From an uncultured Maribacter sp. (GTDB lineage Bacteria; Bacteroidota; Bacteroidia; Flavobacteriales; Flavobacteriaceae), in assembly GCA_947504045.1 (NCBI GenBank), contig CANNFY010000005.1:1-64000 (forward strand): a DNA stretch of 64,000 nt, in the 5' to 3' direction. Position numbers and translations under genes: made by a program. Positions 2 to 17,853 of the stretch are shown piece after piece. The notes beneath the pieces were generated by a model. That model ran no database searches, had not been told where the DNA came from, and saw only the letters and a program-made list of their open reading frames with translations. Position 1 is the first letter of the stretch. Each line of letters begins with the position of its first letter.

Positions 2-3000
2 GCTATTACGAGTAACGATACGGATATTGCTACAAACGCAACTGCAATTGCTAGCAACGATACCGATATTACGGCGCTACAAAACGATAAAGAAGATACT
101 GCGAACAAATCTACCGATGTTGCTTTAGGTACTTCAGATGTGGCTTTTCCAACACAAAATGCTGTAAAGACTTATGTAGATACTCAAGTAGCAACCATCA
201 CTACCGATGATGATATTTCTGCCGTTACTTTTGATGGCACTAACTTAAGTGTTACCGAAAGTGGTACTACGCTTTCTGCAGACCTTTCGGCTTTAGAAGA
301 ATCTAGTGATATTACTGCGAATACTACTGCTATTACGAGTAACGATACGGATATTGCTACAAACGCAACTGCAATTGCTAGCAACGATACCGATATTACG
401 GCGCTACAAAACGATAAAGAAGATACTGCGAACAAATCTACCGATGTTGCTTTAGGTACTTCGGATGTGGCTTTTCCAACACAAAATGCTGTAAAGACTT
501 ATGTAGATAATCAGGTAGGTACGATTACTACCGATGATGATATTTCTGCTGTTACTTTTGATGGCACCAACTTAAGTGTTATCGAAAGTGGTACTACGCT
601 TTCTGCTAACCTTTCCGATTTAGAAGAATCTGCAGATATTACTGCGAATACCAATGCGATTACGAGTAATGATACAGATATTACAGATTTACAATCCAAT
701 AAAGAAGATACCGCAAACAAATCTACCGATGTGGCTTTAGGTACTTCCGATGTGGCTTTCCCAACACAAAATGCTGTAAAGACTTATGTAGATACTCAAG
801 TAGCAACCATCACTACCGATGATGACATTTCTGCCGTTACTTTTGATGGTACTAACTTAAGTGTTACCGAAAGTGGTACTACGCTTTCTGCTGATCTTTC
901 GGCTTTAGAAGAATCTGCAGATATTACTGCAAACACTACTGCGATTAATAACGAAATTACTCGTGCTACTGCTGCGGAAGCTGCAAACACAGCTAACATT
1001 ACTAGCAACGATACCGATATTACGGCACTACAATCCGATAAAGAAGATACTGCGAACAAATCTACCGATGTTGCTTTAGGTACTTCCGATGTGGCTTTTC
1101 CAACACAAAATGCTGTAAAGACTTATGTAGATACTCAAGTAGCAACCATTACTACCGATGATGATATTTCTGCCGTTACTTTTGATGGTACCAACTTAAG
1201 TGTTACCGAAAGTGGTACTACGCTTTCTGCGGACCTTTCCGATCTAGAAGAATCTGCTGAAATTTCTACACTACAAGCGGATGTGGACCAAAACGAATTA
1301 GATGCAGATAATGCCATTACTGCTGTGCAAAATGATGTTGACCAAAACGAGTCGGATGCAGATGCGGCTATCGCTCTTAAAGAAGATACCGCTAACAAAT
1401 CTACTGATGTTGCTTTAGGTACTTCCGATGTGGCTTTCCCAACACAAAATGCTGTAAAGACTTATGTAGATACTCAAGTAGCAACCATCACTACCGATGA
1501 TGATATTTCTGCAGTTACTTTTGATGGTACTAACTTAAGTGTTACCGAAAGTGGCACTACGCTTTCTGCGGACCTTTCGGCTTTAGAAGAATCTGCAGAT
1601 ATTACTGCGAATACCAATGCGATTACGAGTAACGATACGGATATTGCTACAAACGCAACTGCAATTGCTAGCAACGATACCGATATTACGGCGCTACAAT
1701 CCGATAAAGAAGATACTGCCAACAAATCTACCGATGTGGCTTTAGGTACTTCCGATGTTGCTTTCCCAACGCAAAATGCTGTAAAGACTTATGTAGATAC
1801 TCAAGTAGGTACCATCACTACCGATGATGATATTTCTGCCGTTACTTTTGATGGTACCAACTTAAGTGTTACCGAAAGTGGTACTACGCTTTCTGCGGAC
1901 CTTTCGGCTTTAGAAGAATCTGCAGATATTACTGCAAACACTACTGCTATTAATAACGAAATTACTCGTGCTACTGCAGCGGAAGCTGCAAACACAGCTA
2001 ACATTACTAGCAACGATACCGATATTACGGCACTACAATCCGATAAAGAAGATACTGCCAACAAATCTACCGATGTTGCTTTAGGCACTTCCGATGTGGC
2101 TTTTCCAACACAAAATGCAGTTAAAACTTATGTAGATAATCAAGTAGGTACCATCACTACCGATGATGATATTTCTGCCGTTACTTTTGATGGTACTAAC
2201 TTAAGCGTTACTGAAAGTGGTACTACGCTTTCTGCTGACCTTTCAGCTTTAGAAGAATCTAGTGATATTACTGCGAATACCAATGCGATTACGAGTAATG
2301 ATACGGATATTGCAACAAACGCAACTGCAATTGCTAGCAACGATACCGATATTACAGCCTTACAAAACGATAAAGAAGATACCGCTAACAAATCTACCGA
2401 TGTTACTCTGGCAGATGGAACTAACACAAAATTCCCAACAGAACTTGCAGTTAAAACCTATGTAGATAATCAGACGGTAAACGGTACTCAAGGCTCCATA
2501 TTTTTTGCTGATACAGATGGCTCAGTTACTGAAGACAACTCGCAATTATTTTGGGACGGCACCAGTCTAGGTATTGGAAATAATAGTCCTAGTAATAAAT
2601 TACAAGTATCTGGTGCAGTTAGATCAGCAGGGTATCTAAATTCTTCTGGTACTACTAATGAACCTTCCTATAGGTTTCATGAAGATACAAATACGGGTAT
2701 GTACAGAAAAGCTGCTGATGAGATAGGTTTAACTGTAGGTGGCAACGATGCTTTAATTATAGATGAAGTTACAACAGGAAATACAAAAGTTATTGTAACA
2801 CAATCATTAGAACTAGAAGGAACCTTGGTGGATGAAAATGATTCTCCTGGTACTGCAGGGCAAGTATTAACTGCTACTGCAACAGGAACAGAATGGGTTA
2901 CGAATTACAATCCTGTAAAAGCTATCGGTAAAATTTCTAGTGGTGGTGGCATTGTTAAAGCAACAACAGGTATTACTGTTACCAAGTTAACTGGCAATGG

Positions 3001-3223
3001 TCATTACCGAATTAATTTACCTTCTGGTATTGTATCTGATGCAGATTACATTATTCAACTAACCCAACCAGGAAGAGGTGGGGCTGGAAACGATGACCCA
3101 GGCATATCTTACTCCAACCAAACTAGCTCTAGTTTTGAAGTTATTATTGGAGATAATGATAATGGTGGTACAGACCGTAATAGATTTGACTCGGAATTTA
3201 TGTTTACCATTTTAGATTTATAA
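2..3223 (+). CDS. Repetitive fibre-like/surface protein, 5' end outside window
   Basis: The reading frame is already open at base 2 and runs to TAA at 3221-3223, so at least 1,073 residues are visible and the N-terminus is missing. A GTG at 140 is an internal Val codon, not the start. Seven units of 95-113 residues each carry KEDTANKSTDVALGTSDV, then AFPTQNAVKTYVD, then a DDDISAVTFDGTNLSV strand-rich part, then a Thr/Asn/Asp-rich stretch (SNDTDI, NATAI) that looks like a helical or coiled-coil stalk. After the repeats a non-repeated region includes SYRFHEDTNTGMYR, a pattern I associate with phage tail-fibre proteins. No T9SS C-terminal sorting domain is visible. The next gene, a T9SS cargo, starts 23 bp downstream and is probably co-transcribed. 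A trimeric fibre or adhesin-like stalk is inferred; no enzymatic function is suggested. Confidence 0.8.
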   Translation, partial: AITSNDTDIATNATAIASNDTDITALQNDKEDTANKSTDVALGTSDVAFPTQNAVKTYVDTQVATITTDDDISAVTFDGTNLSVTESGTTLSADLSALEESSDITANTTAITSNDTDIATNATAIASNDTDITALQNDKEDTANKSTDVALGTSDVAFPTQNAVKTYVDNQVGTITTDDDISAVTFDGTNLSVIESGTTLSANLSDLEESADITANTNAITSNDTDITDLQSNKEDTANKSTDVALGTSDVAFPTQNAVKTYVDTQVATITTDDDISAVTFDGTNLSVTESGTTLSADLSALEESADITANTTAINNEITRATAAEAANTANITSNDTDITALQSDKEDTANKSTDVALGTSDVAFPTQNAVKTYVDTQVATITTDDDISAVTFDGTNLSVTESGTTLSADLSDLEESAEISTLQADVDQNELDADNAITAVQNDVDQNESDADAAIALKEDTANKSTDVALGTSDVAFPTQNAVKTYVDTQVATITTDDDISAVTFDGTNLSVTESGTTLSADLSALEESADITANTNAITSNDTDIATNATAIASNDTDITALQSDKEDTANKSTDVALGTSDVAFPTQNAVKTYVDTQVGTITTDDDISAVTFDGTNLSVTESGTTLSADLSALEESADITANTTAINNEITRATAAEAANTANITSNDTDITALQSDKEDTANKSTDVALGTSDVAFPTQNAVKTYVDNQVGTITTDDDISAVTFDGTNLSVTESGTTLSADLSALEESSDITANTNAITSNDTDIATNATAIASNDTDITALQNDKEDTANKSTDVTLADGTNTKFPTELAVKTYVDNQTVNGTQGSIFFADTDGSVTEDNSQLFWDGTSLGIGNNSPSNKLQVSGAVRSAGYLNSSGTTNEPSYRFHEDTNTGMYRKAADEIGLTVGGNDALIIDEVTTGNTKVIVTQSLELEGTLVDENDSPGTAGQVLTATATGTEWVTNYNPVKAIGKISSGGGIVKATTGITVTKLTGNGHYRINLPSGIVSDADYIIQLTQPGRGGAGNDDPGISYSNQTSSSFEVIIGDNDNGGTDRNRFDSEFMFTILDL
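89..2371 (+). repeat. Seven in-frame tandem repeats of 285-339 bp
   Basis: Units start at the Lys codon of KEDTANKS at 89, 416, 701, 1040, 1379, 1706 and 2045, giving lengths 327, 285, 339, 339, 327, 339 and 327 bp. All are multiples of three. An eighth, diverged partial unit begins at 2372. Units are near identical at DNA level; the length changes sit in the stalk part, where about four alternative segments occur (SNDTDIATNATAI type, NNEITRATAAEAANTANI type, a short type, and a DVDQNE type). The array continues left of the window edge. Confidence 0.95.
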
Positions 3224-3246: not shown

Positions 3247-4419
3247 ATGAAACTGTTAAAAACCATAGGCCTATTTTTACTACTACAACATACCATTGTA
3301 GCGCAAGATGCCTTACATAATTTTGGAAATCTGCAAGTACACGATGGTACTGCCGTAGGGCTGCATATAAATTTAGTAAATGATGGTACTTTTAACAATA
3401 ACCTTGGCTTAGTTGGTTTTTATGGCTACGATACATCTTTAAATATTTCTGGAACTAACATTCCTGTTTTTTATGACACAGAAATACTTGTAGATAACAA
3501 CTTATTTTTAGAAACATCTATTGAAGTAGAAAATAACACTAACCTAATAACAGGAGATATTGTAACCCCAAGAAATAATTCAGAAATCTATATTAATTTT
3601 CTAAATAATGCTTTTTACATTGGAGAAAATATGGTTTCTAAAGTAGACGGTTATGCAGCAATAACAAATAAAGATGATTTTATTTTTCCTATAGGAACAG
3701 AAGATAGACTACGAACACTAACCCTAAATTCACAAGCTACAAATGCATTTGCTAAATGCGCATATTTTTACGAAAACCCAAATACACCTTCTACATTTAC
3801 AGAATCTTTTGACACTAATAGTAAAGAAACAGAACTCTTAAAAGTTAGCGAAGAAGAATTTTGGCATTTAGAAGGAGACATTCCTTCTACCGTTACATTA
3901 ACTTGGGATATTTATAGTAACATAAGTGCTTTAGGAGAATTTATTACCGATTTAAAAATAGTAGGCTGGAGTAAAGCACAACAACAATGGGTTAATTTAG
4001 GAAATACCAATGTACAAGGAAGCCTAACCCTAGGAACAATTACATCTGACACTTTTTTACCTAATGATTATGCTATTATTACAATAGGAGGAAATAGTGA
4101 TGTTTTAGAGGCATTTAATTTACTGGAACTAGATAATTATTACATGACACCAAATGGAGATGGGGTGAACGATTTTCTGGTAATAGACGGTATAGAAAAC
4201 TCTCCAAATAACAACCTACAAATTTACAACAGATACGGAATTATGGTTTATTCTAAAAACAACTACACTAATGAGTTTGGTGGATTTTCTAATAGAAGCT
4301 CCGTTATTACAAGAAACGATGGCTTGGCATCTGGTGTTTACTTTTATTTAATAACATTAAACGATTTAAGGCAAAAACACCAAGGTTATCTTTATTTAAC
4401 CTCCAATGCAAAAAAATAA
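3247..4419 (+). CDS. T9SS-secreted protein with gliding-motility-type C-terminal sorting domain
   Basis: A 390-residue protein. Residues 1-20 form a Sec signal peptide (MKLLKTIGLFLLL then IVAQ). The last ~95 residues hold the pattern of the type B T9SS sorting domain (gliding motility-associated C-terminal domain): YMTPNGDGVNDFLVIDGI, then LQIYNRYGIMVY, then GVYFYLITL and a short charged end. The middle is strand-rich and I do not recognise it. Such proteins are exported across the outer membrane by T9SS and attached to or released from the surface. The gene starts 23 bp after the repetitive-protein gene, so the two probably form one unit and may interact at the cell surface; that is inference. 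Confidence 0.85.
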   Translation: MKLLKTIGLFLLLQHTIVAQDALHNFGNLQVHDGTAVGLHINLVNDGTFNNNLGLVGFYGYDTSLNISGTNIPVFYDTEILVDNNLFLETSIEVENNTNLITGDIVTPRNNSEIYINFLNNAFYIGENMVSKVDGYAAITNKDDFIFPIGTEDRLRTLTLNSQATNAFAKCAYFYENPNTPSTFTESFDTNSKETELLKVSEEEFWHLEGDIPSTVTLTWDIYSNISALGEFITDLKIVGWSKAQQQWVNLGNTNVQGSLTLGTITSDTFLPNDYAIITIGGNSDVLEAFNLLELDNYYMTPNGDGVNDFLVIDGIENSPNNNLQIYNRYGIMVYSKNNYTNEFGGFSNRSSVITRNDGLASGVYFYLITLNDLRQKHQGYLYLTSNAKK

Positions 4420-6507: not shown

Positions 6508-6897
6508 TTACCCTTTAGCTTTTTTTATAACTGCAAGAGCCTCTTTAGCGTTAGATTCTTTAGCAATTTCTGTAATAGTAAAACCATTTTTACATTTAAT
6601 TTTAAGATCTGCTCCATTAGCAATAAGAAGTTCTAAAATTTCTGCTTTGTTATAACGTGCAGCAAAAATTGCAGGTGTCATTCCTAAAGATACCTTATTA
6701 ACATCTTCTCCTGCTTCAATCATCCCTTTTACTAATTTTAAATTTCCACTTAAAATAGCTTTACAAAAAGTGCTAATTTCTGGGTTTACAACAAACTGTG
6801 TTTCATTACACTTTAATACACTTACATTCTCATTCGCCATTAATCCTGTACTTAAAAGTACAGCCATAATAGCCATAGTTACTGTTAATTTTTTCAT
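6508..6897 (-). CDS. Exported ankyrin-repeat protein
   Basis: 129 residues. Residues 1-21 are a Sec signal peptide (MKKLTVTMAIMAVLLSTGLMA). The mature part contains two ankyrin-type repeats: LKLVKGMIEAGEDVNKVS followed by MTPAIFAARYNKAEILELLI, ANGADLKIKCKNGFTITEIA. There are three cysteines (about residues 29, 45, 104), which could pair in the periplasm. Ankyrin repeats bind other proteins; the partner is unknown. The gene is monocistronic and transcribed toward the shared terminator at 6457-6494, with a 223-bp intergenic region upstream shared with gpmI. Confidence 0.8.
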   Translation of the reverse strand: MKKLTVTMAIMAVLLSTGLMANENVSVLKCNETQFVVNPEISTFCKAILSGNLKLVKGMIEAGEDVNKVSLGMTPAIFAARYNKAEILELLIANGADLKIKCKNGFTITEIAKESNAKEALAVIKKAKG

Positions 6898-16504: not shown

Positions 16505-17853
16505 TATCCTATCTCTTTAAGCATTAAGTCTAAACCTTCTCTTATAATTTTCTGATGCGGTTGTTTAGACACGCATATAAATTCTGTTAATGCAAAATCT
16601 TCTGGAGCTACTTCATACATTCCTAAAGCTTCCATCTCATCTAAATCTTTATACATACAAGCTTTTAGAATTTGCATTGGAAATATATCTAAAGGAAAAA
16701 CCTCTTCGTAACTTCCTGTAGTAACAAATGCTCTATGCTCTCCGTTTGTATTTGTATTTAAATCAAATTTTTTACCTGGAGTTAACCATGAAAAAGTTAA
16801 TGCTCTAGATTTAGATATTTTATTAAAAATTGGTTTATTCCATCCAAAAAACTCATAATCATCTCCTTCTGGAATTACAGAAACGGTACTATTATAATAC
16901 CCTAAATTACCATCCGGAGCACTTTTAGAACCTGTTAAAACATCTCCGTTTATGACTCTAAAATTTTCTGAATTTACACCGCTTGCATATAAAAATGTAG
17001 AAATTTCAGCACCTATAGTTGTTGTATAATACTTAGGTGTTTTTACAGAAGAACCAACTAAAGCAACTGTTCTTTCTGCCTTAAATTTTCCTGTCAATAA
17101 TAAATTACCAATAATTAATAGGTCTTGAGCGCTTACAGTCCAAACAACCTCTCCTTTATTAACAGGATCTATTTTATTTATTTGCGTTCCAACAAGCCCT
17201 GCAGGGTGCGGCCCTGACACTTTATGCAACACTATATTATTTAAACCAGAAAAAGGAGAATTACCAGAACCCAAAGAAACATGCACCTTTCCAGGTGTTA
17301 ACATTGACAAGGCCGTTAAAGCGGCTTGCAATTCTGCTTCTTTACCTTTTAATATATAATCTAAATCCGCAGACAATGGAGCTGTTGAATAACCTGAAAC
17401 AAAAATTGCCTTAGGTGTATTTGCCGGATTTGCTATAACATCATAGGGTCTTTGTTTAATAAATGGCCAACAACCACCTTTTAACAAATAACTTTTAATT
17501 TCTTCTTTAGAGGATGATGCTAAATTTAACTTAGAATGCTCTAAAACAGACTCTTCTTTATCTGTTTTAATTTTCAAAGTTAATATTCTTCTTCTTTCTC
17601 CTCTTACAATTTCCACCAACTCCCCACTAACAGGAGATACAAAAAACATATCCTCTATACTTTTGTTATAAAACAATGGCTCTCCTGCTTTTACAAGCGC
17701 ACCTTGTTTTACCAACATTTTGGGTGTTATTCCGTGAAAATCATCTAATTGAATTGCGTAAACATTACTTAATACCGCCTTAGAAGTTGTTTGTTCTGCA
17801 GCACCTACAAGATTAATATTTAAGCCCTTTTTAATTCGAATGTCTTTAGACAT
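16504..17853 (-). CDS. nqrA: Na+-translocating NADH:quinone reductase subunit A
   Basis: 449 residues, the usual length. The peripheral cytoplasmic subunit, implicated in quinone binding. It begins MSKDIRIKKGLNINLVG, typical of NqrA, and holds PVSGELVEIVRGERRR (barrel-sandwich-like), RPYDVIANP, and LSADLDYILKGKEAELQ. It is the first gene of nqrABCDEF. A TACTTTTG box lies 35 bp upstream, so this is probably the operon promoter. Confidence 0.96.
   Translation of the reverse strand: MSKDIRIKKGLNINLVGAAEQTTSKAVLSNVYAIQLDDFHGITPKMLVKQGALVKAGEPLFYNKSIEDMFFVSPVSGELVEIVRGERRRILTLKIKTDKEESVLEHSKLNLASSSKEEIKSYLLKGGCWPFIKQRPYDVIANPANTPKAIFVSGYSTAPLSADLDYILKGKEAELQAALTALSMLTPGKVHVSLGSGNSPFSGLNNIVLHKVSGPHPAGLVGTQINKIDPVNKGEVVWTVSAQDLLIIGNLLLTGKFKAERTVALVGSSVKTPKYYTTTIGAEISTFLYASGVNSENFRVINGDVLTGSKSAPDGNLGYYNSTVSVIPEGDDYEFFGWNKPIFNKISKSRALTFSWLTPGKKFDLNTNTNGEHRAFVTTGSYEEVFPLDIFPMQILKACMYKDLDEMEALGMYEVAPEDFALTEFICVSKQPHQKIIREGLDLMLKEIG

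Follow-up and report, generated by a model that had tools for sequence, protein, structure and literature searches.

What kind of protein is built from long tandem repeats at the very end of a contig, and how would it be displayed and diversified? The stretch analysed here (hereafter, the window) comprises the first 64 kb of contig C5 in a genome of an uncultured Maribacter sp. that is assembled in 42 contigs (G000:C5:1-64000). Its first open reading frame (ORF) spans positions 2..3223, is open at the 5' edge of the window, and encodes seven repeat units followed by a variant cap, then a neck and finally a C-terminal domain. The reading that we consider likely is that the array forms the shaft part of a long surface fibre built as a homotrimer, in which the base and tip are conserved, the shaft is exchangeable and a partner protein anchors or carries the fibre.

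Organization of the array gene

The features of the gene and its neighbour are listed in Table 1. Base 1 of the window is the contig end and lies inside the array, and base 2 is therefore not the array start for which it had been taken. Unit mapping bore out the seven units of 285, 327 or 339 bp described in the initial annotation, with the reading frame kept in all of them, and tandem repeat scores (TRF) of up to 2234 exclude chance as the source of the array. Six minus-strand ORFs of 83-95 aa over the array are mirror images of the repeats, and no support for them as genes was seen. The partner gene starts 23 bp past the stop codon of the fibre gene.

Table 1. Coordinates of the fibre gene segments and the partner gene in the window
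Feature	Position	Strand	Remark
3' part of cut repeat unit, stalk of longest heptad type	2..106	+	truncated by contig end
Repeat unit 1, 327 bp	107..433	+	
Repeat unit 2, 285 bp, shortest stalk	434..718	+	
Repeat unit 3, 339 bp, stalk type with 18-residue insert	719..1057	+	
Repeat unit 4, 339 bp, stalk type with 18-residue tandem	1058..1396	+	
Repeat unit 5, 327 bp	1397..1723	+	
Repeat unit 6, 339 bp	1724..2062	+	
Repeat unit 7, 327 bp	2063..2389	+	
Cap closing the array at its C-terminal end, with head variant KSTDVTLADGTNTKFPTELAVKTYVDNQ	2390..2473	+	variant also opens first unit on C7
Neck, array to tip, [VI]G[NT]xxPxxKL-type motif	2474..2902	+	low model confidence
C-terminal tip domain including stop, predicted beta sandwich	2903..3223	+	strong conservation across genera
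Partner gene, 390 aa	3247..4419	+	T9SS type-B sorting domain (CHU_C / TIGR04131) at 4138-4398

A protein search of the same genome located the N-terminal half of the fibre gene on a second contig (G000:C7:3-2360, minus strand). This half holds an N-terminus that by eye resembles a signal peptide, the conserved base, a first unit with the cap variant, four further units and a partial unit. Both the last 60 bases of the C7 piece and the initial 60 of C5 have further copies in the array. The two ends show no exact overlap at any length from 20 to 1199 bases, and part of the array is therefore probably absent from the assembly. The two pieces are one gene, split by a gap within the repeat, and the array has at least 12 full units over both contigs. 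The earlier caution that the assembled copy number may be wrong thus holds more strongly than it was put, since the contigs break within the array.

Heads and stalks of the repeat units

Every unit begins with a head, 66 residues long except in the cap unit (67), and continues as a stalk. Length change is confined to the stalk, as had been proposed, the first 66 residues being constant in all seven units of the window. The estimate of about four stalk types also agrees with the mapping: four occur within the window and a fifth in the C7 half, making five over both contigs. Three types lengthen by exact heptads (units of 95, 102 and 109 aa) with an I-x-x-N pattern in register, and these steps preserve the coiled-coil register together with the reading frame. 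The two other types (units of 113 aa) exceed the shortest by 18 residues, one through an insert and one through an 18-residue tandem. The hydrophobic period of the 8 distinct stalk sequences is 3.42-3.56 (permutation p 0.0005-0.05). Heptad-type stalks carry isoleucine every 7 residues, and asparagine follows at +3 for 28 of 50 isoleucines (12 stalks). Asparagine triads at heptad position d are described as recurrent in trimeric coiled coils in the available text of a structural study (PMC12933892).

At the DNA level the 11 ordinary heads of both contigs (198 bp each, cap unit excluded) have pairwise identities of 0.879-0.975 (median 0.929), with pS at 0.217 versus pN at 0.016, and stalks of one type are 0.868-1.0 identical. 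To call the units almost identical at the DNA level was accordingly an overstatement: heads are 88-97% identical and the differences are mostly synonymous. As judged from these substitution rates, the head protein is kept while synonymous sites have drifted.

Of 19 informative head sites, 16 fall at third codon positions, and half of the site pairs clash with a single tree. The recombination signal in the heads is weak (PHI p = 0.034), and an exact tract of 213 bp is common to two adjacent units. Head similarity has no link to stalk type (0.9343 for pairs of the same type, n=9, and 0.9340 for pairs of different types, n=46; p = 0.48). From these signals, a reshuffling of heads and stalks is probable. 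The initial proposal of expansion and contraction by recombination therefore stands in part. It is supported by the independent assortment of heads and stalks, the PHI signal, the shared tract and the spread in size of the 15 complete homologous ORFs with both base and tip, which range from 342 to 3272 aa. A pS of about 0.2 among units disfavours very fast turnover of the array and bounds the recency of its expansion.

Predicted structures of the shaft and tip

AlphaFold2 models were computed for single chains only. In the model of two units (mean pLDDT 72.1, alignment of 23 rows) the same succession appears twice: a short helix, then a meander of three strands, then a long helix, which has 48 residues in one case and 42 in the other. 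Foldseek returned no match for this model at E <= 0.001, VIA-align returned mostly single long helices (best Z 5.9) with no convincing match in the PDB, and a profile of the unit found nothing among PDB sequences.

The model of the C-terminal region has a mean pLDDT of 65.8, with the neck poorly predicted and parts of the tip low or middling. The tip, comprising the last 105 residues, is predicted as a beta sandwich in which ten-residue blocks from residue 171 to 277 have pLDDT of 65-94, 6 of the 11 blocks reaching at least 87. The VIA-align comparison aligned it with the C-terminal domains of the phage tailspikes of Pam1 (Z 8.3) and phiAB6 (Z 7.4), the coral lectin SLL-2 (Z 6.8), Helix pomatia agglutinin (Z 6.5 and 6.4, over 76 residues) and the fibre ends of R-pyocins (Z 5.4-5.7, with R2 pyocin at 5.7). 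Unrelated folds were aligned as well, namely a shrimp virus envelope protein (Z 6.7), TNF (Z near 4) and filamin. Z values of 5-8 are middling and may reflect a shared arrangement only, with no function implied. Among predicted viral structures the tip gave 52 matches at E <= 0.001, the best at 1.5e-7. In the best 50 of these 52, 7 are named as tail fibres, one of them from an Olleya phage, and query TM-scores are 0.14-0.34. The top Foldseek match in the PDB is the Bd2133 fibre (E 5.6e-4), with TM-scores of only 0.12-0.16 and an rmsd near 20. No Pfam lectin family matched the tip at E <= 1, and its profile hit only an antibody domain among PDB sequences (E 0.41).

Conserved ends and a variable shaft among relatives

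Relatives were collected by a pattern scan for the C-terminal region in one genome per species, which detects only near-exact short peptides. The scan yielded 45 loci, all flavobacterial (Maribacter, Cellulophaga, Zobellia, Kriegella, Aurantibacter and others). In 20 of the 45 the ORF runs off the start of the locus at a contig end; the locus thus breaks assemblies, and many public genomes have only a truncated copy of it. In the array of Maribacter huludaoensis, a run of 100 N (L006:8701-8800) is a scaffold gap or a masked stretch. Within the genus, a 226-residue N-terminal query matches in all eight genomes, and in five of these (G000, G001, G004, G006 and G007) the N-terminal half ends at a contig end.

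Both ends of the protein are conserved. The base comprises about 70 residues. The tip alignment has 35 invariant columns over 34 of 46 sequences, the 12 short or distant loci having been excluded, which inflates the apparent conservation. Over 28 rows (378 pairs), mean pairwise identity is 0.77 for the tip versus 0.64 for the rest.

Between these ends the shafts are of at least five, partly overlapping, kinds: AVKTYVD-type units, VDLSxLEES-type units, PADIADG/VPANLDTD motifs (55 hits in L023), TNETNT-type units (G007) and GXY runs (891 residues in L034, 183 in L041). Whole units of G000 match whole units of G001 (45-58%), L015 and L029 at 45-64% overall, and G004 has pieces of 45-85 residues in common with them at 40-62%. 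Matches are partial in L016, confined to a stretch near the base in G007 and present only at the end near the tip in L023; the G039 locus has no match to the G000 units. By these alignments the shaft kinds are mosaics, and those of G001 and G004 have pieces in common with that of G000.

In the single-contig, complete genome G039, three fibre genes and three CHU_C genes take turns, and a short fibre-like ORF precedes the last of them. Its second and third fibres have collagen shafts (PF01391, Pfam E-values 2.5e-190 and 4.3e-161) and both carry the base of the family; the third ends in the tip seen in the window and the second in a diverged tip. The fibre protein of the window itself has no Pfam collagen match. 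That the same slot accepts a heptad coiled coil or a collagen is best accounted for by a trimer.

Further genes of this kind were observed. A second fibre-like gene of 873 aa lies directly upstream of the N-terminal half of the array gene (L005:3732-6353, on G000:C7, minus strand), with its own CHU_C partner (L005:2567-3727) and a C-terminus that by eye is like the tip of the array gene, but diverged. A second tip type (NHLPGIKSA...EKIEELFLHTIEQEKKI-like) occurs on neighbouring paralogous fibres at L094:1708-4515, L095:4092-6152 and L135:2375-5479, and the two examined have no Pfam family above cut-off. The N-terminal query also matches at G000:C3:27655-28008 and G000:C2:16893-17438 (both minus strand), with no strong partner gene listed near either.

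A type-B T9SS protein accompanies the proposed fibre

The two partner proteins of the G000 genome score 44.8 and 43.2 bits against TIGR04131 (cut-off 35) and 94 and 86.7 bits against CHU_C (cut-off 27), and by this domain the partner is a predicted T9SS type-B substrate. The fibre protein has no Pfam family above cut-off and no recognised T9SS signal or surface anchor, and neither half matches TIGR04131 or TIGR04183 at E <= 1. NCBIfam matches of the array protein (e.g. GroES) were far below cut-off and were read as chance resulting from composition.

In 42 of the 45 loci the fibre gene is followed, on its own strand, by a partner homologue; in L044 and L048 the homologue is upstream only, and L049, which is 3.6 kb long, has none. 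In many relatives, ten loci having been inspected for this, fibre and partner are separated by one or two short ORFs that carry a related base. Examples are L006:10751-11908, L007:1949-4447 and L029:10875-13080, which have a YNTDxxxxYQYNGSxW-like base and different C-terminal domains; five such ORFs were examined and have no Pfam family at E <= 0.01.

Across the order, strong matches to the base (E <= 1e-28) and to the partner (E < 1e-100) occur in the same 10 of 246 genomes, from 8 genera, at thresholds that were chosen after the gaps to the next matches (4.3e-21 for the base, 1.0e-42 for the partner) were visible. Weaker matches extend to 73 of 246 genomes for the base (E <= 1e-4) and 16 of 246 for the partner (E <= 1e-30). 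Among the 22 listed genomes of genus g128, G510 alone has both genes. Base and partner are on one contig and strand in G000 (C7), G039 (three pairs), G166 (two pairs), G345, G008, G510 and G182, and the two kinds of gene alternate in G166 as in G039. They are on separate contigs for the window's own pair, G326, G591, G126 and the second base gene of G345. A strong base gene has no listed partner nearby in one of two cases in G008 and one case in G000 (on C3).

This linkage bears on the possibility that the protein is a monomeric or collagen-like matrix component, released to the medium or a biofilm, next to a functionally unrelated CHU_C protein. Such a reading would suit both a fibre protein in which no surface anchor is recognised and the collagen shafts of some homologues. 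It is nevertheless unlikely, as collagen and heptad coiled coils imply oligomers, and strong base and partner genes keep to the same few genomes and alternate in two of them.

The type-B domain also raises the possibility of an adhesin like SprB, an array protein moved on the gliding track. SprB is described as an adhesin that bears the CTD itself and has sprF directly downstream (PMC12618676). What the present system has in common with SprB and other T9SS type-B adhesins, as far as these are described in the sources at hand (PMC12618676, PMC9143113), is the link of a surface adhesin, here a putative one, to a type-B CTD in Bacteroidota; the partner carries this CTD as SprB does. Here, however, a second, small protein bears the CTD, and no PorP/SprF shuttle gene adjoins either of the two partners of this genome, although the genome encodes 15 PorP/SprF genes and 18 type-B domains above cut-off: no PorP/SprF gene is on C5, and the nearest on C7 is at 17044. 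We judge a gliding adhesin to be quite improbable, and favour a held or carried trimeric fibre.

Comparison with known fibre systems

Among the nearest described systems are the mosaic adhesive trimer (MAT) fibres of Bdellovibrio bacteriovorus, which are cellular, surface-displayed and phage-fibre-like (PMC10769870). As described in the text available for that study, MAT proteins have a signal peptide, then a conserved beta-rich N-terminal domain of about 130 aa that is constant, a trimeric beta-helix or beta-prism fibre, and at the C-terminus an S74 chaperone or independent tips that are beta-sandwich or lectin-like. The window protein is likewise phage-fibre-like with a predicted beta-sandwich tip, and the Foldseek match Bd2133, for all its low TM-scores, is one of these fibres. 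By that account MAT proteins diversify the tip. The reverse is seen here, where the shaft varies behind an unchanging tip, and the fibre gene is moreover linked to a T9SS partner. At its N-terminus the present protein has a signal-like start (by eye) and a conserved base of about 70 residues. The MAT capping loop V-G-G/N-pi-X-X-P-X-X-X-L, with pi taken as F, Y, W or H, is present in none of the 28 neck-covering rows among 34 scanned; a shorter motif, [VI]G[GNT] then P then K/L, is present in 21 of these 28.

Trimeric autotransporter adhesins such as YadA, SadA and AtaA have long coiled-coil stalks with asparagine at position d and interspersed beta modules. The predicted coiled-coil stalk with I-x-x-N and the beta modules of the window protein are similar. 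Unlike these adhesins, it has no YadA-type C-terminal anchor by Pfam and its C-terminus is a predicted beta sandwich, and its orientation is probably opposite, with an N-terminal base and a C-terminal tip.

The predicted tip fold resembles those of phage tail fibres and tailspikes, R-pyocin fibre ends and H-type lectins, which would suit a gene for the tail fibre of a phage or tailocin, located in an intact or decayed prophage. In addition, at least 69 viral contigs (L136-L204) encode AVKTYVD-type head modules, and shaft modules thus seem to occur in phage fibres as well. The gene is chromosomal, however, in a conserved non-phage neighbourhood: its neighbours are housekeeping or envelope genes (the CHU_C protein, VanY and M48 by Pfam, phosphoglycerate mutase by eye), their order is kept in three congeneric genomes, and no phage structural genes surround the fibre, the ORFs listed to 14 kb looking cellular. 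A tblastn search at 1e-5 against 50,697 phage records gave zero matches, the tip profile against viral contigs gave 63 pattern matches and no confirmed relative, and base and tip are conserved across genera together with the T9SS partner. A phage origin of this kind is therefore very improbable. Matches to PHROG families (best phrog_30158, of unknown function, 3.6e-16) fall on the repeats and are unnamed.

We have not filed the system as a MAT, a trimeric autotransporter or a phage fibre. A literature search covering titles and abstract openings, with few subscription journals, found no description of this pair of fibre and partner genes.

Similarity of units within genomes and possible shaft exchange between species

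Units that encode a near-same peptide have a pS of 0.208 within G000, 0.348 within L015 (Cellulophaga) and 0.730 between the two. For a second unit type, in three loci, the values are 0.228-0.388 within and 0.506-0.773 between. The lower pS within than between genomes indicates concerted evolution or expansion within each lineage. Codon constraint was rejected as its cause, as the near-same peptide is encoded at a pS of 0.73 between G000 and L015. That the units should be an assembly artefact of collapsed or chimeric repeats, as contigs ending within the array on both sides might suggest, has hardly any likelihood, since the units differ by synonymous changes and distinct stalks and comparable arrays lie inside long contigs of other species (L016, L023 and L029).

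A different pattern is seen between G000 and its congener G006. The G006 head has a pS of 0.252 to the G000 heads (11 comparisons; 0.283 on a part of 25 residues), about half that of the flanking genes (base, tip, partner, VanY, M48 and phosphoglycerate mutase, 0.426-0.600). Concerted evolution is not seen between these two genomes, with 0.231 within and 0.252 between, which may be read as shared or exchanged shafts. In G004 and G007 the flanking genes have a pS of 0.440-0.692 to G000 and the shafts are different, that of G004 being partly related. Exchange of shaft cassettes between species is the simplest reading that these distances suggest; for G006 the argument draws on one head of 51 residues and one segment of 26 residues, with 18.7 synonymous sites in the 25-residue part.

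A model for the fibre and its partner

A surface fibre with a modular stalk, as envisaged in the initial annotation, is supported indirectly by the signal-like N-terminus, the heptad stalks and the phage-fibre-like predicted tip, and further by the collagen shafts of homologues and the T9SS type-B neighbour. In the mechanism that we propose, the fibre protein would be exported by Sec and would then assemble as a trimer, with the N-terminal base at the cell surface, beside or bound to the CHU_C protein. Along the shaft, the repeats would make coiled-coil stretches that alternate with beta segments. By analogy with phage fibres and MAT proteins, the C-terminal beta sandwich would be the outward tip and would probably bind glycans. 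The T9SS would bring out the CHU_C partner, which would carry the fibre through the T9SS pore or receive it outside; its most likely role is to keep the fibre on the cell or to bring it out. The shaft repeats would change by unequal recombination, which would keep the frame and mostly the heptad register, as the unit lengths do, and which may make fibre length differ among the cells of a culture. Recombination would homogenise the repeats in each genome, and shafts would be swapped between species with base, tip and partner retained.

More tentatively, we envisage a two-part system of marine Flavobacteriaceae, in which a signal-less fibre is exported and held by a dedicated T9SS type-B protein. 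Its base and lectin-like tip would be fixed, and the trimeric shaft between them would be replaced as a whole, with coiled coil, collagen triple helix and beta repeats standing in for one another through recombination inside a species and across species. The strict association of a type-B protein with a signal-less fibre suggests a T9SS route for displaying proteins that lack a T9SS signal. The system is real and more unusual than first described, yet it is assembled from known kinds of parts.

Many phage fibres diversify at the tip. With tip and base conserved and the shaft changing, selection may act here on shaft length, stiffness or recognition by phages or grazers, and not on the choice of ligand.

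Elsewhere in the window, at 6508-6897 on the minus strand, an ORF of 129 aa has a signal-like start and, by eye, ankyrin-like repeats.
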